Shown: one piece after another, positions 1 through 41,045 of the stretch | Numbering within the stretch: the first letter of the stretch is position 1 | How the letters are laid out: each line of letters begins with the position of its first letter | Source: Sphingomonas sp. JUb134 | GTDB taxonomy: Bacteria; Pseudomonadota; Alphaproteobacteria; Sphingomonadales; Sphingomonadaceae | Direction of reading: 5' to 3' | Assembly: GCF_004341505.2 (NCBI RefSeq) | Contig: NZ_SLYP02000001.1 | Location: forward strand, 1 to 64,000 | DNA length: 64,000 bases | Notes under the pieces: model-generated | Seen by the model: only the letters and a program-made list of their open reading frames with translations | Database searches by the model: none | Told to the model about the DNA's origin: nothing | Program-made: the position numbers and the translations under genes

Positions 1-360
1 TGCCCGGCCCAGCGGGCTAGCCGTGCCGGTGGCCCTCGCGATCATGCCGTCGAGTCCGTCCGCGATCAGCCAAGTGACCGACAGCACCGATCCCGCCACG
101 ACGAACGGCCAATGTTCCCAGCGGCCGAAGGCAAGAGCGGCCAAGACGCCGAGCGTCAGCCCCCCGACCGACACGGCGTTCGCCGAGATTCCCCGTGCGA
201 TGAACCAGGGCAGCAGCATCCGCCCCGCCGGGTGTATGACCCACAGGTTGGTAGGATCCTCGATCCGGCGATCGCGTGACTGGTCCGGTGGAGGGGGGGT
301 CATCGAAATGTCACGTACAGGTGCATCGGCCTTTCCAGCAAGCAGTTTGCGACGAGGCAT
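1..360 (-). CDS. CDP-alcohol phosphatidyltransferase family protein (3' part outside the window)
   Basis: The reading frame runs off the left edge, so only the N-terminal part is visible. The family transfers a phosphoalcohol from a CDP-alcohol to a second alcohol at the inner membrane during phospholipid synthesis. The diagnostic motif D-G-x2-A-R-x8-G is present (DGMIAR, then eight residues, then G), about 100 residues from the start; the two following catalytic aspartates fall outside the window. A hydrophobic segment (VSVGGLTLGVLAALAFG) precedes it, followed by a second (VVAGSVLSVTWLIA), as expected. Two starts are in frame: ATG at 360 (MPRRKLLAG) and ATG at 303 (MTPPPPDQ); neither has a strong ribosome binding site. 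The substrate cannot be told from this fragment. Confidence 0.8.
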   Translation of the reverse strand, partial: MPRRKLLAGKADAPVRDISMTPPPPDQSRDRRIEDPTNLWVIHPAGRMLLPWFIARGISANAVSVGGLTLGVLAALAFGRWEHWPFVVAGSVLSVTWLIADGLDGMIARATGTASPLGRA

Positions 361-507
361 CAAGCACTCAAGCCTTGAAGTGGGCGCGGCCACGCAGCTG
401 GGCATGAATACTGGAGGGTTTTGCAGGCCGCTTTCGACATCGCTGCCGGATCCGCACCATTCGCATGCGAGACTCTGCGGGAGATTGGTCTAAAGGGCTC
501 CCTCTCC

Positions 508-526
508 GGTCGCGACGGTCGCGACC
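508..526. promoter_or_regulatory. 19-bp perfect dyad upstream of the DUF6481 gene
   Basis: GGTCGCGAC, a single G, then GTCGCGACC form a perfect 9-1-9 inverted repeat ending 15 bases before the ATG at 542. Because the centre is one base, it looks more like a dimer-protein operator than an RNA hairpin. No regulator is recognised, and the site may also be chance in GC-rich DNA. Confidence 0.35.
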
Positions 527-541
527 CAAGACGGACTAGAC

Positions 542-877
542 ATGGCAGGGTACAAGACTCCCAATTTCTCCGAACGTGCAGCCGCATCGCGTGCCGCCAA
601 GCAGACGGCGCTCGAAAAGCTCCGCAACAAGCCCGCCGCGGATCCGGCGACCATCGCGGCGCGCGAGGCGACCCAGGCAGCCCGCAAGGCTGCCGCGGCC
701 GAGCGTCGTGCCGAGCGCCTGAAGGCCGCCGAGGCCGAGAGGGCAGCCAAGCTGGCCGAGGCGGAGGCAGCCCGTGCCGCCCAGGCACCTGCTGCGCCCA
801 AGCCCCAGAAGACGGCGGAAGAGCTGAAAGCCGCTCGCGACGCCCGCTACGCTGCGCGCAAAGCCCGCAAACGGTGA
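542..877 (+). CDS. DUF6481 family protein
   Basis: A 111-residue, very alanine-, lysine- and arginine-rich protein starting MAGYKTPNFSERAAASRAAK. The N-terminus 'YKxPxFxER' and the charged helical remainder fit the small DUF6481 family seen in sphingomonads and relatives. The middle and C-terminal parts should form a long, highly charged helix or coiled coil (repeats of A/E/R/K, residues 25-85), ending in a basic tail (YAARKARKR). There is no signal peptide or membrane segment. Its stop overlaps the GTG start of the next gene by four bases, so the two are probably translationally coupled. The molecular function is unknown; the basic tail would allow nucleic-acid binding, which is inference. 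Confidence 0.75.
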   Translation: MAGYKTPNFSERAAASRAAKQTALEKLRNKPAADPATIAAREATQAARKAAAAERRAERLKAAEAERAAKLAEAEAARAAQAPAAPKPQKTAEELKAARDARYAARKARKR

Positions 878-1551
878 CTCCGCGCGAGCTGATCGGAGTC
901 GCCGAGGTCCCGGGAGGGCCGCCGCTGCGGCTAGTCCGCCGCGGCAGCGACTTCATGATCCTGCTCGAACGCAATGAGTTGATGAGCAGCCGCATGCGCG
1001 GATCCGAGGTGGCGCTGGGCACGATGACCTGCGATCGACTCGGGACGCGCCCGGCACCGCGGCTGCTGATCGGCGGCTATGGCATGGGCTTCACGCTGCG
1101 TGCAGTGCTCGGCCTGGTGGGTCCCGAGGCCCAAGTGACCGTTGCCGAACTGGTGCCCGGCATCATCGAATGGGCGCGCGGCCCGATGGCGGAACTCGCC
1201 CAGGGATGTCTGGACGATCCGCGCGTCACCATCCGGATAGGCGACGTAGGCTCGGCAATCGGCGAGGCTGCAGCAGGCCCCGAGCGCTATGACGCGATCC
1301 TGCTGGACGTCGACAATGGTCCGGACGGTCTTACCCGGCAAGAGAATGACGGCCTGTACACGGCGCGCGGGCTGGCGCGGGCGCGGGCAGCGCTACGACC
1401 GGGCGGCATCCTCGCCGTGTGGTCGGCCGCGCCCGATCCGGCATTCGCACGGCGACTTGCCCAGGCGGGCTTTGCCGTCGACGAGGTCCGCGTCCGCGCC
1501 CGGGAGAATGGCAAGGGACCGATGCACGTCATCTGGTTCGCACGGGTCTGA
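874..1551 (+). CDS. Spermidine synthase-like SAM-dependent methyltransferase fold protein
   Basis: A 225-residue protein read from a GTG that overlaps the stop of the preceding gene (GTGA), giving VTPRELIGV. It has a Rossmann-type SAM/dcSAM-binding core: LLIGGYGMGFTLRAVL (motif I), an acidic residue after the second strand (VAELVPGIIEWAR), and DAILLDVDNGP (motif IV region). This arrangement resembles spermidine synthase-like proteins of unknown substrate that are annotated in many proteobacteria. The short N-terminal beta region (LRLVRRGSDFMILLERNELMSS) also resembles the spermidine synthase N-terminal strand pair. There is no signal peptide. It lies in the position upstream of rplK where secE-nusG is often found, but there is no sign of a functional link to ribosomes. 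Confidence 0.75.
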   Translation: MTPRELIGVAEVPGGPPLRLVRRGSDFMILLERNELMSSRMRGSEVALGTMTCDRLGTRPAPRLLIGGYGMGFTLRAVLGLVGPEAQVTVAELVPGIIEWARGPMAELAQGCLDDPRVTIRIGDVGSAIGEAAAGPERYDAILLDVDNGPDGLTRQENDGLYTARGLARARAALRPGGILAVWSAAPDPAFARRLAQAGFAVDEVRVRARENGKGPMHVIWFARV

Positions 1552-1721
1552 GGCTCCGGCACGGCCAATTGCCTTTCGCCCCGGCTTCGGCTATGCGCGC
1601 GCCTTCCAACGTCATGCGTGGAAAACTTGCGGGAGGCGTCTGTCCATCGGACGGCCGATCGAACCGCTAAACTTGAAACGGGCGAGGTCGCCAGACCCTG
1701 CCCCGCTACAGAGTGAGAAAC

Positions 1722-2153
1722 ATGGCAAAGAAGATCACCGGCTATATCAAGCTGCAGGTTGCAGCTGGTGCCGCCAACCCGTCGCCGCCGATCGGCCCGG
1801 CGCTGGGTCAGCGCGGCGTGAACATCATGGAATTCTGCAAGGCGTTCAACGCGCAGACCGGCGACGTAGAGAAGGGTACCCCCCTCCCCACCGTCATCAC
1901 CGTCTATGCCGACCGCTCCTTCTCGTTCGAGACTAAAACGCCGCCGGCGACCTACCTTCTCAAGAAGGCAGCGAACCTGAAGTCGGGCTCCAAGGAGCCG
2001 GGCAAGGTGACCGCGGGTTCGATCAAGCGTTCGCAGGTGGCCGACATCGCCACCGCGAAGATGAAGGACCTGAACGCCAACGACATCGAGGCAGCGACCA
2101 AGATCATCGAAGGCTCCGCCCGCGCGATGGGCCTCGAAGTGGTGGAGGGCTGA
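1722..2153 (+). CDS. rplK: 50S ribosomal protein L11
   Basis: Full-length L11 of 143 residues, a component of the GTPase-associated centre that binds 23S rRNA with L10/L12 and contacts elongation and stringent-response factors. The N-terminal domain carries the proline-rich [15 protein letters not shown] segment, and the C-terminal rRNA-binding domain contains [14 protein letters not shown]. The start is ATG at 1722 ([11 protein letters not shown]) with a weak GAG-type ribosome binding site just upstream; a GTG at 1713 is also in frame but adds a non-conserved MRN. rplA follows after four bases, giving the usual rplKA operon. In many bacteria nusG sits directly upstream; here it does not. Confidence 0.98.
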
Positions 2154-2157
2154 GATC

Positions 2158-2850
2158 ATGGCCAAGCTGACCAAGAAGCAGAAGACCTGGACGATCGACA
2201 GCGAGAAGCTGCACGGCGTTGACGAAGCGATCGCGCTGGTGAAGTCCAACGCGACCTCCAAGTTCGACGAGACCGTCGAAGTCGCGCTGAACCTGGGCGT
2301 CGATCCGCGCCACGCCGACCAGATGGTCCGCGGCGTCGTGACCCTGCCCAAGGGCACCGGCAAGACGGTGCGCGTGGGCGTGTTCGCCCGCGGCGCCAAG
2401 GCTGACGAAGCCACGGCAGCCGGTGCGGACGTCGTCGGCGCCGAGGACCTGATGGAAGCGATCCAGGGCGGCAAGATCGACTTCGATCGCTGCATCGCCA
2501 CCCCGGACATGATGGGCCTGGTCGGCCGCCTCGGTAAGGTGCTGGGTCCCAAGGGCCTGATGCCGAACCCGAAGCTCGGCACCGTGACCATGAACGTCGC
2601 AGCCGCCGTGGAAGCCGCCAAGGGCGGTCAGGTCGAGTATCGCGTCGAGAAGGCCGGCATCATCCATTCCGGCATCGGCAAGGCGAGCTTCTCGGCCGAG
2701 GACCTGCGCGAGAACTTCGACGCGCTGGTCGATGCGGTCGTCAAGGCTAAGCCGTCGGGCGCCAAGGGCAAGTACCTCAAGAAGGTCGCGCTCTCGTCGT
2801 CGATGGGCCCGGGCGTGCGGGTGGACGTGGCGGAAGTCGCCACCGCCTGA
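2158..2850 (+). CDS. rplA: 50S ribosomal protein L1
   Basis: Full-length L1 of 230 residues, which binds 23S rRNA at the L1 stalk near the E site and, in other bacteria, represses its own rplKA mRNA. Family hallmarks include the start [36 protein letters not shown] (the conserved central block, residues about 117-141) and [15 protein letters not shown] near the C-terminal third. The gene lies four bases behind rplK and is followed within about 30 bases by a strong terminator, so the operon ends here instead of running on into rplJL. Confidence 0.98.
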
Positions 2851-33126: not shown

Positions 33127-33201
33127 TGGTGGGCGTGGCAAGGATTGAACTTGCGACCCCTGCGATGTCAACACAGTGCTCTACCACTGAGCTACACGCC
33201 C
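33127..33201 (-). tRNA. tRNA-Val (anticodon GAC)
   Basis: 75 nucleotides including an encoded CCA. Acceptor stem GGGCGTG/CACGCCC with discriminator A, D-arm GCTC-AGTGGTA-GAGC, anticodon stem CTGTG/CGCAG with loop TTGACAT (anticodon GAC, reading GUC and GUU), and T-arm with GTTCAATCC. All arms pair well. Confidence 0.97.
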
Positions 33202-33214
33202 GCCGGGAGTGCGG

Positions 33215-33243
33215 CCTCTAGCGGGGAGCGCTGGGGAGCGCAA
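33215..33243 (-). promoter_or_regulatory. Candidate promoter of tRNA-Val
   Basis: On the minus strand TTGCGC (33243-33238), a 17-base spacer and TAGAGG (33220-33215), with the -10 ending 14 bases before the tRNA 5' end. A short T-run upstream (minus strand, after cpdR) may separate it from cpdR. Confidence 0.5.
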
Positions 33244-33275
33244 GCACCGAAAGTGGCCGAACCCAAAAAATCTGC

Positions 33276-33653
33276 TCAGCTGTGCGAGGGGACGCTGTCC
33301 TCCGCAAACAGCTGGTCCACTTCGCGCACCAGGTCGCGCAGGTGGAAGGGCTTTGACAGCACCCGGGCCTGGGGCACGGCCTTGCCCGCCTTCAGCGTCA
33401 CTGCCGCAAAACCGGTGATGAACATCACCCGCATCTCGGGTGCGATCTCCTGCGCCTTTTGTGCGAGTTCGATGCCGTCCATCTCGGGCATTACGATATC
33501 GGTGAGGAGCAGATCGAACGTCTCGCTCTCCAGCAACGGCAAGGCGGCCGTCCCGCGATCGACCGCCGCCACGCGGTAGCCGGAACGTTCGAGCGCGCGC
33601 GTCAGATACTCGCGCATCACCTGATCGTCCTCGGCCAGCAGAATCCTGTACAT
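33276..33653 (-). CDS. cpdR: Single-domain response regulator CpdR
   Basis: A 125-residue receiver domain without output domain. It begins MYRILLAEDDQVMREYLTRA; the phosphoacceptor is Asp52 in LLLTDIVMPEMDGIELA, followed by VMFITGFAAV and VLSKPFHLRDLV. These blocks match CpdR of alphaproteobacteria closely as I remember it. In Caulobacter unphosphorylated CpdR primes the ClpXP protease for degradation of cell-cycle proteins at the pole, and phosphorylation through ChpT/CckA switches this off. The conserved lysine (SKPF) and the acidic pocket (EDD) are intact. Divergent from the N-formylglutamate amidohydrolase gene. Confidence 0.9.
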   Translation of the reverse strand: MYRILLAEDDQVMREYLTRALERSGYRVAAVDRGTAALPLLESETFDLLLTDIVMPEMDGIELAQKAQEIAPEMRVMFITGFAAVTLKAGKAVPQARVLSKPFHLRDLVREVDQLFAEDSVPSHS

Positions 33654-33749
33654 GCATCCCTCTCGTACGAGCGCCCGCGTCTATGGGCGAACCCCTGCCG
33701 CTTTTCCAGCGCGTTGCTCCGGATCGCCGCGGGGCCTAGCATCCAGGGC

Positions 33750-34598
33750 GTGCCCGCGCCGCCTCTCCCCTTTGACCTGCACGGTCCCGCCGATCCGGTA
33801 ACGCCGCTGGTGCTTTCGGTGCCGCATGCCGGCCGCGCCTATCCGGAGGCGATGCGGGATCTGCTGCGGGTGCCGCTTGCGGCGCTGCTACCGCTGGAGG
33901 ACCGGCTGGTCGACCAGGTGGCGCTTGCGGCGCGCGGACCTCACACGCTGTTCGTCGCCAAGCTTCCTCGCGCCTGGATCGACCTGAACCGGAGCGAGCA
34001 GGAGCGCGATCCGCAGGTCGACGCGGGCGCCGACCCCATGGTGCAGCCCCGGGCCTCGGCGCGGCTGCGCAGCGGGCTGGGGCTCATACCCCGGCGCGCC
34101 AGCAGCGCGGGCGACATCTGGAAGCGCCGGTTGCACGCGGACGAGGTTACTGCCCGCATCATGGCCCAACATCGTCCCTACCACGCCGCGGTGGCTGCCG
34201 CGCTCGCGTCGGCGCACGCGCGGTTCGGCGTCGCCATCCTGCTCGACATCCACTCCATGCCATCGCTGCCGGGCGTCACGCCTGCGCAGGTCGTGCTGGG
34301 CGACCGACACGGGCGCTCGGCAGCGCGGCGCCTGGTGGATGCGCTCGAAGCCGCCGCGCGGGATGCCGGCCTTCGGATCGCCCGTAACCAGCCCTACGCC
34401 GGTGGGCACGTGGTGACGACCCATGGGGCGCCCGCACGCAACGTGCACGCGGTCCAGATCGAGTTCGATCGCGGCCTCTATCTGGATCCCACGCTGACGG
34501 AGGTTGGTCCCGGCTTTCCCCGCCTCGCTGCCGCCCTCGCCCACATGATCGCAGCCGTCGCCGCGGAAGCGCTTCCGCCGGCGCTTGCCGCCGAATAG
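33750..34598 (+). CDS. N-formylglutamate amidohydrolase family protein
   Basis: A 282-residue protein from GTG 33750 (VPAPPLPFDLHGPADPVTPL). Family motifs: LVLSVPHAGRAYPE near the N-terminus, WIDLNRSEQERDP, and LLDIHSMPSL (a metal-binding DxHS pattern), followed by VVLGDRHGRSA and VQIEFDRGLYLD. The reference activity is hydrolysis of N-formylglutamate to glutamate and formate in one histidine-degradation route; no hut genes are nearby, so a broader amidohydrolase role is possible. No signal peptide. It starts about 100 bases from the divergent cpdR start. Confidence 0.88.
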   Translation: MPAPPLPFDLHGPADPVTPLVLSVPHAGRAYPEAMRDLLRVPLAALLPLEDRLVDQVALAARGPHTLFVAKLPRAWIDLNRSEQERDPQVDAGADPMVQPRASARLRSGLGLIPRRASSAGDIWKRRLHADEVTARIMAQHRPYHAAVAAALASAHARFGVAILLDIHSMPSLPGVTPAQVVLGDRHGRSAARRLVDALEAAARDAGLRIARNQPYAGGHVVTTHGAPARNVHAVQIEFDRGLYLDPTLTEVGPGFPRLAAALAHMIAAVAAEALPPALAAE

Positions 34599-34603
34599 CG
34601 CAT

Positions 34604-34712
34604 AAAAAAACCACCCCGTGCACGAAGCACGAGGTGGCCTAGGTTCAGGGAGGAGACACGCTGAAAGCGTGTCACACGATCCCGCGAAAGGGGGGAACAC
34701 GAGACCGCGTAC
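34604..34712 (-). ncRNA. Candidate trans-acting small RNA with exposed anti-Shine-Dalgarno motif
   Basis: No ORF explains this stretch, yet the minus strand carries a promoter with a near-consensus -10 (34718-34745) and, about 109 nucleotides later, a perfect intrinsic terminator: CCACCTCGTGC, loop TTCGT, GCACGGGGTGG (one U-G), then seven T. Between them is a 7-pair hairpin GACACGC-TTTCA-GCGTGTC, followed by an unpaired TCTCCTCCCTGAACC. The CCUCC core is complementary to ribosome binding sites, as in several alphaproteobacterial small-RNA families (the suhB-like/alpha-r8/alpha-r14 type and CcsR RNAs). Membership in one of those families is a guess from the motif. It lies between the N-formylglutamate amidohydrolase gene and sapC. 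Hfq-type action would fit the terminator's U-tail. Confidence 0.7.
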
Positions 34713-34717
34713 CAGAG

Positions 34718-34745
34718 AATATAGATATCAAGCGCAAAGGTTCAA
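34718..34745 (-). promoter_or_regulatory. Promoter of the small RNA
   Basis: Minus strand TTGAAC (34745-34740), 16-base spacer, TATATT (34723-34718). The -10 is one base from consensus and transcription would start at about 34711-34712. Confidence 0.7.
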
Positions 34746-34835
34746 GCGTTTGCCGACACTTGCGATGCATTGCCTGACGCGCACGACGAAACGCCGCCCA
34801 TCGGGAAGACGGACGGCGCTTGCGATTCGTACTGC

Positions 34836-34862
34836 GTCTCGCCGGGCTTGACCCGGCGGGAC
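34836..34862 (-). terminator. Hairpin downstream of sapC
   Basis: On the minus strand GTCCCGCCGGG, loop TCAAG, CCCGGCGAGAC (one mismatch) lies six bases after the sapC stop. It lacks a T-run, so it may be a weak or factor-assisted terminator. Confidence 0.45.
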
Positions 34863-34868
34863 GTCCGA

Positions 34869-35642
34869 TCAGGCGGTCGGCTGGGGCGCGATCATGCCCG
34901 CGCGCACTTGACGCGCGAACAGGTCCCGCATCAGCGACAGCGAGAAGATGTGCGCATAGAGCAGCGGCAGCATGCCGTTCTGCTGGATCTTGCGCAGCTG
35001 GTCGCCACGAAGCTCGTTGAGCTTCTTTTCGTCGACCATCTGGAAACCACGGTAGATGAACGGCTGCTCGGCGCCGTCCGGCTGGATCGAGACTTCACCG
35101 TCGATCAGAAGGCCCAGGTCCTTGACCTCCTTCATGAACATCGCGGTGCGCTGGCCGGCCTGCTCGAACTGCTCGTTGAACTGCAGGATCTGCTTGGTGG
35201 TCTCGCTCGGCTCGGTGCCGTCGAACAGCGCCTCGCCGTCCTCGAACGCGCCGATCGTGTCCGCGGTCGGATCGAAGCACAGCGACAGGTCCTCGCTGTC
35301 CGGACGCAGGCGGGCGAGCATGTACGGATAGCGGCGGACATAGGCCGGGACGTACACTTCCGGGTCGATCAGCCGGCCGTCGGCGTCGATGAAGGTGTTG
35401 ACGCCCTCGTTCAGGCCCATCAGCGCGAGCGGAACGGGATCCTCGCCCACCGAGAAGACGATCGGCATGCGACGCTGCACCAGCGGGAATTCTTCGACGG
35501 TGACCGGCACGGCATGCTCGTTGACCAGGAACGGCGCACGATCCGCAACGCGAACCTTGTAGTTGGCGTGCTGCTGGCTCGAAAGCGGTTCGAGCTGGTT
35601 GTAAAACAGAGGAAGCCCGTTGTTCTTCGGCGCCGTGGCCAT
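34869..35642 (-). CDS. SapC family protein
   Basis: A 257-residue protein starting MATAPKNNGLPLFYNQLEPL. The conserved SapC blocks are present: LEPLSSQQHANYKV, FPLVQRRMPIVFS, ALMGLNEGVNTFID, YVPAYVRRYPYML and LCFDPTADTIGAF. The family was named from a Campylobacter S-layer protein transport locus, but in sphingomonads and Caulobacter it usually accompanies TonB receptors or tryptophan halogenases and has no proven function. No signal peptide. It starts 31 bases after the stop of the FAD-linked dehydrogenase gene, so both are probably transcribed together. Confidence 0.9.
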   Translation of the reverse strand: MATAPKNNGLPLFYNQLEPLSSQQHANYKVRVADRAPFLVNEHAVPVTVEEFPLVQRRMPIVFSVGEDPVPLALMGLNEGVNTFIDADGRLIDPEVYVPAYVRRYPYMLARLRPDSEDLSLCFDPTADTIGAFEDGEALFDGTEPSETTKQILQFNEQFEQAGQRTAMFMKEVKDLGLLIDGEVSIQPDGAEQPFIYRGFQMVDEKKLNELRGDQLRKIQQNGMLPLLYAHIFSLSLMRDLFARQVRAGMIAPQPTA

Positions 35643-37195: not shown

Positions 37196-37663
37196 ATGCC
37201 CGTACCGAAGCCTGTCCCCGTGCTTCTGCTGCTGACGCTCGCGGCCCCCATGGCCGGGGCCCAGCAGCGCGTGAGCGTTCCGGCCGGCACGGTCGTGCAC
37301 AGGGAGGTGCGCATCCAGCGAATCATCGTGCGGGTGCCGCGCATGGAAGTCACCCCCGCCTCCAGTTCGCGTGCGCTGCCGGCGATCAACTGGGTGGAGA
37401 AACGCACCGACCGCTGTGTGCCCGTCGCCAATCTGGCGGCGGTGTCGATCACCCGCACCGACAGCGTCGACCTGATGCTGACCGGCGGGAAGCGGCTGCG
37501 GGCGCGCCTGGAGGAGGATTGCCCGACGCTCGACTTCTACTCGGGCTTCTACCTCAAGCCGACCGCGGACGGGATGGTGTGCGCGTCGCGCGATACGATT
37601 CGCTCCCGCTCTGGGGGGCAGTGCCGCATCTCGTCTTTCCGAATGCTCGTTCCCGGCCGCTGA
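37196..37663 (+). CDS. Exported protein of unknown function
   Basis: A 155-residue protein with a signal peptide (PVPVLLLLTLAAPMAGAQ). The mature part has RIIVRVPRMEV, NWVEKRTDRCVPVANLA, LMLTGGKRLRARLEEDCPTL, DFYSGFYLKPTADGMVCASRD and QCRISSFRML: four cysteines, enough for two disulfides in the periplasm. I do not recognise a named family, but the text resembles small secreted proteins conserved in sphingomonads. Start ATG 37196 with GAGAAGAGA upstream. It may share a promoter with the downstream helicase, 88 bases on. Confidence 0.7.
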   Translation: MPVPKPVPVLLLLTLAAPMAGAQQRVSVPAGTVVHREVRIQRIIVRVPRMEVTPASSSRALPAINWVEKRTDRCVPVANLAAVSITRTDSVDLMLTGGKRLRARLEEDCPTLDFYSGFYLKPTADGMVCASRDTIRSRSGGQCRISSFRMLVPGR

Positions 37664-37751
37664 GGCGCGTTCTGCTTGACAATCCGGCAGAAATCCGCAA
37701 GGCGCGGACCTGCATTCCGGTGCCGCGACGGTGCCGTTTTCCGGAAACCCC

Positions 37752-39110
<1,359 letters not shown>

Positions 39111-39124
39111 TCGGGCAAGGCCGC

Positions 39125-39349
39125 GTGGACGATTTCATCGACTATGTTGCGCCGGTCGCGGTCGAAAGCCCGTGCGTCCTGGTGTGCACGCTCGACCTCG
39201 AGAGCGGCTGGTGTTTCGGCTGCGGCCGCACGCGCGAAGAGATCGCCAACTGGACGGCGATGTCGGCCGAGGAGCGGAGCACCGTGTTGGCGGCCCTCCC
39301 CGCGCGCTGCGGCACACTCGAACAGCGGATTGCAGCCTCGATCGGCTGA
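39125..39349 (+). CDS. DUF1289 domain-containing protein
   Basis: A 74-residue protein with the complete DUF1289 cysteine motif: SPCVLVCTLD, then WCFGCGRTREEIANW. The four conserved cysteines (C-x3-C-x8-C-x2-C) probably bind a metal ion such as zinc or an iron-sulfur cluster. The start is a GTG at 39125, 14 bases after the helicase stop, with GCAAGG upstream, so it is likely part of the same transcript. Function unknown. Confidence 0.9.
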   Translation: MDDFIDYVAPVAVESPCVLVCTLDLESGWCFGCGRTREEIANWTAMSAEERSTVLAALPARCGTLEQRIAASIG

Positions 39350-39366
39350 TCGCCGGCTTCGGCGGC

Positions 39367-40245
39367 CTAGCCGTCGATCCGGGCATGCAAGAAGCGCGTA
39401 GTCCGCTCCCAGGCGAGCTTTGCCGCCGCGGGATCATATCGTTGTGCCGACGTGTCGTTGTTGAAGGCGTGATCGACGTCCGGATAGACGTGGGTCTCGA
39501 CCTGCTTTCCTGCCGCCTCCAGCGCCTTTGCCCAAGGCAGGCCCGTTGCGTTCACGCGCTGGTCCTTGCCCGCATAGTGTAGCAACAGCGGCGTCTGGAC
39601 CTTCGTCGCCTCGGAAGGGGCGGGCGCAGGTCCGTAATATGCCACGCCTGCGCTGAGCGCAGGTCCGGCGGCGATCGCCAGGCGATTGACGAAGGCGCCG
39701 CCCCAGCAAAAGCCGACCGCGCCCACCTTTCCGGAGCCGCCCCGCTGCCGCGCCGCACGATCGATGGTGGCGACTGCCTGACGAAGGGCCAAGTCCATGT
39801 CGATGCTGGCGATCATCTCGCGTGCGCGGTCCTCGTCGGCAGGCGTGCCGCCCTGCGGCGCCAGCAGGTCGAGCGCGACGGCTCGGAACCCGCTCAGCGC
39901 CGCGCGCCTTGCCACGTCGCGAATATGCTCTGTCAGGCCCCGGTTCTCGTGGATGACCAACACCGTACCGAGCTTGCGACCGCCGGCCTCTCGGGGTGCC
40001 GCGAAATAGGCTGCGGCCGGCTTACCCGCCTCGACCCCTTTGCGCGTGGCAGTACGAAGGCGAGGATCGTCGGGCTGGACCTGCTGCGCTGCGGCAGGAG
40101 ACGCCGCGATCGCTGCGACCAGCGCCTCGGCAGCGACGGCGGAGCCCGTGAGGGCGACCATCTCCCGCATGAAGGCGCGACGATCGCGGTGCTCGTGGGT
40201 GAAGGCGTCGTAGAGCGCGACAGCGCGCTCGCGAAGGTCGGTCAT
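39367..40245 (-). CDS. Dienelactone hydrolase family protein
   Basis: A 292-residue alpha/beta hydrolase. After a basic N-terminus (DRRAFMREMVALTGSAVAAE) there is a hydrophobic Ala-rich stretch to about residue 53 (ASPAAAQQ), which resembles a Tat- or Sec-type leader in related proteins (the RR is not a full Tat motif). Active-site blocks: GTVLVIHENRGLTEHIRDVA, VGAVGFCWGGAFVNRLA with nucleophile Cys at about 180, LLLHYAGKDQRVN (Asp) and YPDVDHAFNND (His). These give the Cys-Asp-His triad of dienelactone hydrolases, which open lactone rings in aromatic degradation. No catabolic operon is nearby, so the natural substrate is open. Confidence 0.9.
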   Translation of the reverse strand: MTDLRERAVALYDAFTHEHRDRRAFMREMVALTGSAVAAEALVAAIAASPAAAQQVQPDDPRLRTATRKGVEAGKPAAAYFAAPREAGGRKLGTVLVIHENRGLTEHIRDVARRAALSGFRAVALDLLAPQGGTPADEDRAREMIASIDMDLALRQAVATIDRAARQRGGSGKVGAVGFCWGGAFVNRLAIAAGPALSAGVAYYGPAPAPSEATKVQTPLLLHYAGKDQRVNATGLPWAKALEAAGKQVETHVYPDVDHAFNNDTSAQRYDPAAAKLAWERTTRFLHARIDG

Positions 40246-40367
40246 GCCAGTTATCCCCGAGTCGGACGGGGAGAAGCTAATCGGCTTTCTGCCTCAGCAG
40301 AAGCGGCAGGGCCTCGGGCCCGCCGAGCCCGTCCCCCGCAAGCGCGGAGGGACGGGAACGTTGGCGA

Positions 40368-41045
40368 TCAGCGCTTGAACGGATCAATGAAGGCCGGGGC
40401 AGGCTCGGCAGTCTCGCCGTTCGCCAGTGCCTCGGCATCGCGCACCGCCTGCTGCCGCTCGTTGCGCAGCTGCTCCAGCAGTGCCTCGCGGTCGCCCTCC
40501 AAGCGCGTGTCGGTCGGTGCTTCCATGCCCGCGGCCTTGGCGGCCTTGGTCACCAGTGCATCGAGCTCCCGCTGCGAGCACAGGCCGAGCGTGACCGGAT
40601 CCTTCGGCACGATGTTGCCGATGTTCCAGTGCGTACGGTCGCGGATCGCGGCGATGGTGGTGCGGGTGGTGCCGATCAGCTTGCCGATCGCGCCGTCCGA
40701 GATCTCCGGATGGTTGCGGATGATCCAGGCGATGCCGTCCGGCTTGTCCTGGCGCTTCGACACCGGGGTGTAACGCGGCCCCTTGGTGCGGCGGACCTGC
40801 TCGGGACCCTTCTGGATCTTGAGGCGATAGTTCGGATCGGCCTGGCCCTTTTCGATCTCGTCCTGCGTCAGTTCGTGGGCGCGGACCGGATCGCGGCCGG
40901 TGAGCTTGGTTGCGGCAGTGTCGTCGGCGATCGCCTGCACTTCCAGGATGTGCAGGCCGCAGAAGTCGGCGATCTGCTCGAACGACAGCGACGTGTTATC
41001 GACCAGCCAGGAAGCGGTCGCATGCGGCATCAACGGCTGGGCCAC
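40368..41045 (-). CDS. trcR: Cell-cycle transcriptional regulator TrcR (DUF1013)
   Basis: A 225-residue cytoplasmic protein. The N-terminal part MPHATASWLVDNTSLSFEQI and ADFCGLHILEVQAIAD, then KGPRYTPVSKRQDKPDGIAW and IGKLIGTTRTTIAAIRDRTHW (a helix-turn-helix-like segment at about residues 118-145) match DUF1013 proteins. The Caulobacter member TrcR binds with RNA polymerase at cell-cycle promoters. The start is a GTG at 41045 with CTGGAG eight bases upstream. A GNRA-capped hairpin lies just upstream in the leader. The C-terminus is a charged helix (EALLEQLRNERQQAV) with a Pro-rich tail. Confidence 0.87.
   Translation of the reverse strand: MAQPLMPHATASWLVDNTSLSFEQIADFCGLHILEVQAIADDTAATKLTGRDPVRAHELTQDEIEKGQADPNYRLKIQKGPEQVRRTKGPRYTPVSKRQDKPDGIAWIIRNHPEISDGAIGKLIGTTRTTIAAIRDRTHWNIGNIVPKDPVTLGLCSQRELDALVTKAAKAAGMEAPTDTRLEGDREALLEQLRNERQQAVRDAEALANGETAEPAPAFIDPFKR

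Follow-up and report, generated by a model that had tools for sequence, protein, structure and literature searches.

A predicted FGase-linked small RNA of the suhB/alphaR8 type in Sphingomonas sp. JUb134 and its conserved 5' C-loop hairpin

The minus strand between a gene for N-formylglutamate amidohydrolase (FGase) and a SapC-family gene of Sphingomonas sp. JUb134 raises the question of whether a short stretch with the marks of a promoter, hairpins and a terminator is an RNA gene of its own, to which family such an RNA would belong, and how it would act. The stretch is located at 34745-34604 of the window, which is the whole of the DNA analysed (64,000 nt, contig NZ_SLYP02000001.1, positions 1 to 64,000), and features a promoter followed by a predicted RNA of ~108 nt with three hairpins, an unpaired UCCUCCCUGAACCU segment, and a terminator. 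All comparative tests, which are tests on sequence, indicate that this minus-strand element is a real, conserved RNA gene. The best explanation, to which we assign a probability of about 0.85, is a sphingomonad alphaR8 (suhB/MmgR/SisA) small RNA at the ancestral FGase-linked locus that would act as an Hfq-type repressor by pairing its CCUCCC with ribosome-binding sites.

Promoter, fold and conservation

The -35 element TTGAAC (34740-34745, minus strand) and the -10 element TATATT (34718-34723, minus strand), which are separated by 16 nt, were both located by a promoter scan. The original prediction named this pair, and it is the sole sigma-70-like site in the 1.5 kb scanned (34000-35500; shuffle mean 0.2). 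A TTG lies upstream of the -10 element in 58/58 orthologues from the genus, at a distance of 16 nt in 41 and 17 nt in 17. The -10 element has A at position 2 in all 58 sequences; T is frequent at position 1 (50) and less so at position 6 (only 32), and the hexamers differ among sequences. A TTG-type -35 element with a combined score of at least 7/12 was found in 65/67 loci from other genera by a permissive scan in which TTG was required. The promoter places the 5' end of the RNA at 34709-34713 and the U tract is taken as its 3' end, which gives a predicted small RNA of ~108 nt at 34604-34711 on the minus strand. We infer that it is transcribed from its own promoter.

The 108 nt from 34711 to 34604 fold with a free energy of -55.7 kcal/mol (z = -7.65), a value that none of 200 shuffles equals. 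RNAalifold predicts three hairpins on A1, an alignment of the window sequence with 57 loci from other genomes that contains 57 distinct rows. The 5' hairpin (34674-34710, minus strand; MFE and RNAalifold) consists of 13 pairs and an 11-nt loop, UUCCCCCCUUU, at 34697-34687. The middle hairpin (34655-34673, minus strand; MFE and RNAalifold) has 8 pairs, of which 6 show two-sided changes, and corresponds to the 7-pair hairpin proposed from the sequence. The unpaired UCCUCCCUGAACCU at 34654-34641, identified by fold and conservation and likewise anticipated between two hairpins, is complementary to the Shine-Dalgarno sequence and is the presumed mRNA-pairing core. Within the genus CTCCTCCCTGAACCT is invariant (58/58 sequences), and exactly 9 of the 11 positions around the core are unpaired in 54/58 MFE folds. 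The intrinsic terminator (34604-34640, minus strand; fold and promoter/terminator scan) is formed by a stem-loop at 34640-34608 with seven U at 34610-34604, as had been predicted. It shows two-sided changes in 7/13 modelled pairs, with 99% of cells paired. The original prediction therefore had the middle hairpin and the terminator right, but overlooked the 13-pair 5' hairpin at 34710-34674.

The same prediction described the stretch as having no ORF. As worded this does not hold, since two of the three forward frames pass through the RNA without meeting a stop and open frames run into the region, for example a GTG ORF at 33888-34700. Depending on the orthologue, 38, 39, 40 or 41 nt separate the C-rich loop from the core; over all 58 these distances cover all three frames, so the RNA is very unlikely to be coding.

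A DNA search of 100 relatives found orthologues in 58/61 genomes of the genus, the own genome counted, with E 1.9e-9 or better. The three genomes without a match (G007, G015, G019) are all 83-86% complete, and weak hits (E 0.002-0.08) to other families of the order were excluded from the count. In A1, 97.1% of cells pair (shuffle mean 87.6), two-sided changes occur in 22/34 base pairs (shuffle mean 14.2), and 199 cells are changed on both sides (shuffle mean 50.3). None of 500 shuffles, which do not preserve the relatedness among the sequences, reaches the observed value on any of five measures. Slid versions of the structure pair 34-53%, a comparison that favours the structure because it was derived from the same sequences. 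The hairpins and the CCUCC motif are conserved with compensatory changes in related genomes, as the prediction required.

A covariance model, R1, was built from the alignment of the window RNA with the 5' hairpin included, so the presence of this hairpin in R1 matches is partly by construction. R1 matches were found in 171/199 genomes and 87/96 genera sampled from the family Sphingomonadaceae (E <= 0.001), leaving 28/199 family genomes without a match at this threshold, and in 34/190 genomes class-wide (E <= 0.01). A second alignment, A2, is made up of 76 sequences, namely the window sequence, 8 loci of the genus, and 67 R1-matched loci of other genera. Of these 67, 27 are the best scorers, 20 stand near the bottom of the matches listed, and 20 come from the middle range (one per genus as far as seen); the weakest R1 matches are absent. 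A2, which was fitted to R1, shows two-sided changes in 30/34 pairs, and none of 500 shuffles is as high. A joint-motif scan of named genomes found at least 120 stretches. Among the 80 listed, the named isolates all belong to Sphingomonas except for Stakelama and Hephaestia, and the remainder are MAGs labelled as Sphingomonas, as Sphingomonadales or only as unspecified bacteria.

Family identity

The best Rfam match is RF00519 (suhB/mmgR), which covers 34597-34677 with the full length of the model (1-77) at 33.9 bits (E 1.3e-5 for the 241 bases searched). The kinship with RF00519 that had been suggested is thus recovered by the covariance search, but below the gathering cutoff of 41 bits, which leaves the RNA formally outside the Rfam family; a gathering scan of the whole window passes only two tRNAs. 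When 20 of the 57 genus loci were compared with RF00519, one passed (the window orthologue in G042), 14 more matched under the cutoff at E <= 0.05, and 5 had no match at that threshold. For 20 of the 67 loci from other genera, none passed, 4 matched below the cutoff, and 16 had no match at E <= 0.05. With 39/40 of the FGase-linked copies tested under the cutoff, Rfam-based annotation would mostly miss them.

RF00519 is nevertheless over its cutoff somewhere in 92/100 relatives. All 9 same-genus loci among the RF00519 matches listed are of a second RNA type with GCCTTTCAGGCATCCTCTCCTAA, and two such suhB-like RNAs, both over the cutoff, are found in the own genome at C1:571837-571911 and C1:1453908-1453982 (L089, L090). 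Rfam-based annotation of sphingomonads may therefore describe mainly paralogues of the FGase-linked copy. The second type reads GCCTTTCAGGCATCCTCTCCTAAACCTTTC and then a terminator, with CCUCUCC in place of CCUCCC.

The alphaR8 RNAs are described as present in most species as a single copy beside the FGase gene (PMC12559287). The window RNA is adjacent to an FGase gene and has a Rho-independent 3' terminator, and it agrees with the alphaR8 10-mer UUUCCUCCCU at 9/10 positions. The exact 10-mer is found in 0/58 genus, 11/67 other-genus, and 32/36 order/class sequences, and CCUCCCU is found in 58/58 genus sequences. Because UUUCCUCCCU is not exact, the window RNA is a variant and positional orthologue and not a standard alphaR8 member. 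The hairpin just before the core covaries and is stable, in contrast to the weak hairpin described for alphaR8. Since the FGase-linked position is the one described for the family, the RNA is best taken as a positional orthologue of SisA/alphaR8 that has diverged and is formally outside the Rfam model. The best Rfam match, the covarying hairpins and the FGase-linked position together uphold the initial assignment to a CCUCC-type alphaproteobacterial small RNA.

Comparison with the characterized RNAs reveals the same mixture. The RF00519 RNAs share the hairpin, the unpaired CCUCCCU core, and the terminator; however, the window core starts with UCU where the model has UUU, and the C-loop 5' hairpin is outside the model. 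SisA of Caulobacter crescentus is also located downstream of the FGase gene and also features a single-stranded core after a hairpin and a terminator, but it carries UUUCCUCCCU after a weak hairpin and has three siblings elsewhere in the genome (PMC12559287). In place of such siblings, the window genome has one R1 locus with a contig-end duplicate, and two second-type suhB-like RNAs elsewhere. SuhB of Sphingopyxis granuli TFA is, like the window RNA, a sphingomonad small RNA of the suhB name; it is Hfq-dependent and lowers thnR translation, and it is reported as 61 nt, whereas ~108 nt are predicted here (PMC6563040). Judging only from this length, SuhB may belong to the second paralogue type (GCCUUUCAGGC-AUCCUCUCCUAA) and not correspond to the FGase-linked RNA.

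The 5' C-loop hairpin

The new part of the finding is the conserved 5' C-loop hairpin, which is absent from the standard RF00519 model and lies upstream of the RF00519 match (34597-34677). A search of titles and abstract openings returned no prior description of a 5' hairpin in an alphaR8-type RNA, a scope that leaves room for an earlier description in the body of a paper. In the window the loop contains CCCCCCUUU. Two-sided changes affect 9/13 pairs of the stem within the genus and 13/13 pairs across genera (A2, an alignment fitted to the model). The loop features CCCCCUUUC in 58/58 genus sequences and CCCCCCUUUC in 55/58; the motif CCCCCTTTC is present in all 58 loops and CCCCCCTTTC in 55 of them.

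The loop was also checked in MFE folds, which are independent of the model. In 66/67 sequences from other genera the first hairpin carries a C-rich loop, and these 66 loops consist of 41 with a C-run plus UU, 19 with a C-run plus UCA, and 6 others. The remaining sequence, L237, contains the C-run, yet the first loop of its MFE fold is not C-rich. A C-run-UU loop is found in only 2/36 order/class sequences, with CCC in another loop in 8 more, so the module is not class-wide. C-rich runs occur near the same place in some loci of other families of the order (L032, L036, L037, L040), on which basis the 5' module may be older than the family.

The -10 element of the window ends 7 nt upstream of the first pair of the 5' hairpin, and in other genera the promoter-like pair picked up by the permissive scan that required TTG ends anywhere from 2 nt inside the R1 match to 6 nt ahead of its start. 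The 5' hairpin is therefore inside the transcript if the promoter is used. The stem varies freely with compensation and the loop remains C-rich, and this constraint on the loop sequence suggests a contact site for an mRNA, another RNA or a protein. The 5' hairpin is probably a lineage-specific module that provides a second pairing site or a protein-binding site. A more specific proposal, which we regard as tentative, is that the sphingomonad alphaR8 is a two-site regulator in which the 5' C-rich loop (CCCCCCUUUC or CCC-UCAU, depending on the genera) would serve as a second seed beside the CCUCCC core, and the two would grip G-rich ribosome-binding sites or a dedicated RNA or protein partner. 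If this is true, the target set would extend beyond that of MmgR and SisA.

It is somewhat improbable, though the strongest of the alternatives, that the functional RNA is the 3' part only, ~70 nt with the middle hairpin, the core and the terminator, and that the 5' hairpin is a removable, protective or processed-away leader. RF00519 covers just this part, and a length of 61 nt is reported for the SuhB of Sphingopyxis (PMC6563040), although that RNA may be a different paralogue. The covariation of all 13 stem pairs across genera argues against a dispensable leader. Additionally, the loop is kept besides the stem, with a C-run plus UU throughout the genus and a C-rich loop in all but one of the other-genus folds, and a mere cap needs no constant loop. 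The full-length RNA with its 5' hairpin remains the preferred reading.

Gene neighbourhood and proposed action

The FGase gene (PF05013, Pfam 208.3 bits) is located at 33651-34598 on the plus strand, with an uncertain exact start, and is convergent with the small RNA; the end of its stop codon is 5 nt away from the U tract. The SapC-family gene (PF07277, Pfam 219.8 bits) is located upstream at 34869-35642 on the minus strand, the same strand as the small RNA. Neighbours were counted in flanks of ~1.5 kb, and absence below means absence within the flank. FGase is convergent at the 3' side of the small RNA in 50/57 loci of the genus, 65/67 of other genera, 14/22 of the order, and 15/28 of the class. 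Seven of the 57 genus loci, including one that sits at a contig end, lack FGase at the expected place in the flank. The 14 FGase-linked order loci (L032, L033, L038, L043, L044, L046-L048, L050, L052, L054-L056, L096) hold an RNA over the suhB cutoff, by which they were picked, so their informative part is the FGase position and not the score. SapC is found upstream in 51/57 genus and 58/67 other-genus loci, on the same strand whenever found, and in the flanks of 0/22 order and 0/28 class loci. The tRNA, response regulator (33276-33653), FGase, small RNA and SapC follow one another over 33130-35642 of the window as a long-lived block; the response regulator is present in 50/57 genus orthologue loci and the tRNA in 18/20 loci tested.

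This arrangement also allows a cis-acting reading, in which the element is the 3' boundary of the convergent FGase gene or antisense to the 3' end of its mRNA, or in which, conversely, FGase read-through serves as an antisense sponge. The FGase stop lies within 30 nt of the RNA 3' end in 100/117 FGase-bearing loci and touches or overlaps it in 35 of these 117 (8 of the 125 loci have no FGase in the flank), and the convergence reaches class level. The U tract, however, follows the stem on the minus strand only, and genus loci whose flank has no FGase (L028-L030, L066, L067; a further one, L017, ends at a contig end) still preserve both the core and the promoter. SisA, moreover, acts in trans (PMC12559287), and we consider a cis-acting element improbable. 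In the window the FGase stop and the U tract lie almost in contact (34598-34610), and FGase read-through would yield an RNA perfectly antisense to the small RNA.

Membership in another CCUCC family, or an independent origin of the motif, is very improbable. SorX (RF02784) shares CCUCCCUG after a hairpin, and there are weak Rfam matches to SorX (19.9 bits), anti-hemB (18.5 bits), and the Betaproteobacterial toxic small RNA (17.3 bits). These scores are far from the respective cutoffs of 46.6, 49.5 and 50 and are all under the 33.9 bits of suhB, a meaningless match to a hepatitis C element at 22.8 bits in the same search indicates the noise level, and the FGase position fits alphaR8. Chance hairpins, or a piece of the sapC 3'-UTR with neither a promoter nor an RNA of its own, are hardly credible despite the upstream sapC on the same strand, given the covariation and the TTG kept 16-17 nt from the -10 element in 58/58 orthologues.

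The sphingomonad alphaR8 RNA would be transcribed from its own sigma-70-type promoter and end at the intrinsic terminator, which would leave UCCUCCCUGAACCU exposed between two hairpins. With Hfq, CCUCCC most likely pairs with the Shine-Dalgarno region of several mRNAs, and this pairing would block ribosome binding. By analogy with the characterized relatives, the targets are probably in nutrient uptake and catabolism. The core UUUCCUCCCU of SisA pairs with mRNA 5' regions together with Hfq (PMC12559287), and SuhB in Sphingopyxis binds the thnR 5' UTR and reduces translation with Hfq (PMC6563040). From the homology to SisA/SuhB, the window RNA would be expected to cover Shine-Dalgarno regions and thereby act as a repressor, and Hfq binding, the targets, and trans-acting Hfq-dependent repression as a whole are proposed on this analogy. 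Hfq is encoded in this genome (G000:C1:2242985-2243416; L361, L362), where it appears to comprise two Sm domains within a single open frame of 185 codons.

The pattern AGGGAGGA-N3-11-ATG occurs at 13 sites in the genome, compared with 1 for the reversed pattern. By eye, the genes after these sites include a TonB-dependent receptor, GH10 and GH2 glycosidases, a cupin, a 2Fe-2S small subunit, a hemerythrin-like protein, and a SufA-like protein, and the other six are short or unclear frames. These sites were set aside as evidence for a regulon because the pattern is also that of an ordinary strong Shine-Dalgarno sequence, which makes them compatible with a nutrient regulon but no evidence for one. 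The complement of the 5' loop, GAAAGGGGG-N2-11-ATG, has one site (control 0) and is uninformative. In Caulobacter SisA is sponged by CrfA (PMC12559287). A search for TTCAGGGAGGA in 62 genomes found no perfectly complementary CrfA-like sponge at that stringency; in the own genome this sequence has no occurrence other than the one opposite the small RNA and that in the contig-end duplicate, and extra sites are found in other genomes.

Sphingomonads are studied for pollutant degradation. The alphaR8 RNAs have been tied to carbon status: in Sinorhizobium to PHB storage, and in Caulobacter to the switch from feast to famine (PMC12559287). SuhB in Sphingopyxis has been tied to catabolite repression (PMC6563040). 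With the model and alignment, the positional orthologue and its 5' module can be searched for and tested.

R1 finds a single locus in the own genome and its duplicate at the contig end, C1:3430025-3430134. The last ~41 kb of contig C1 (~3395366 to 3436294) appear to repeat window 1-40873. Compared in pieces, window 37579-40873 recurs without a difference as C1 3433000-3436294, and 13 samples, each of 40 bases and taken between C1 3395500 and 3397900, match window 135-2535, with an offset that differs by 56 bases between the two ends of the overlap. The end repeat appears to be an untrimmed overlap of a circular assembly, so the second small RNA "copy" is a duplicate of the window locus.
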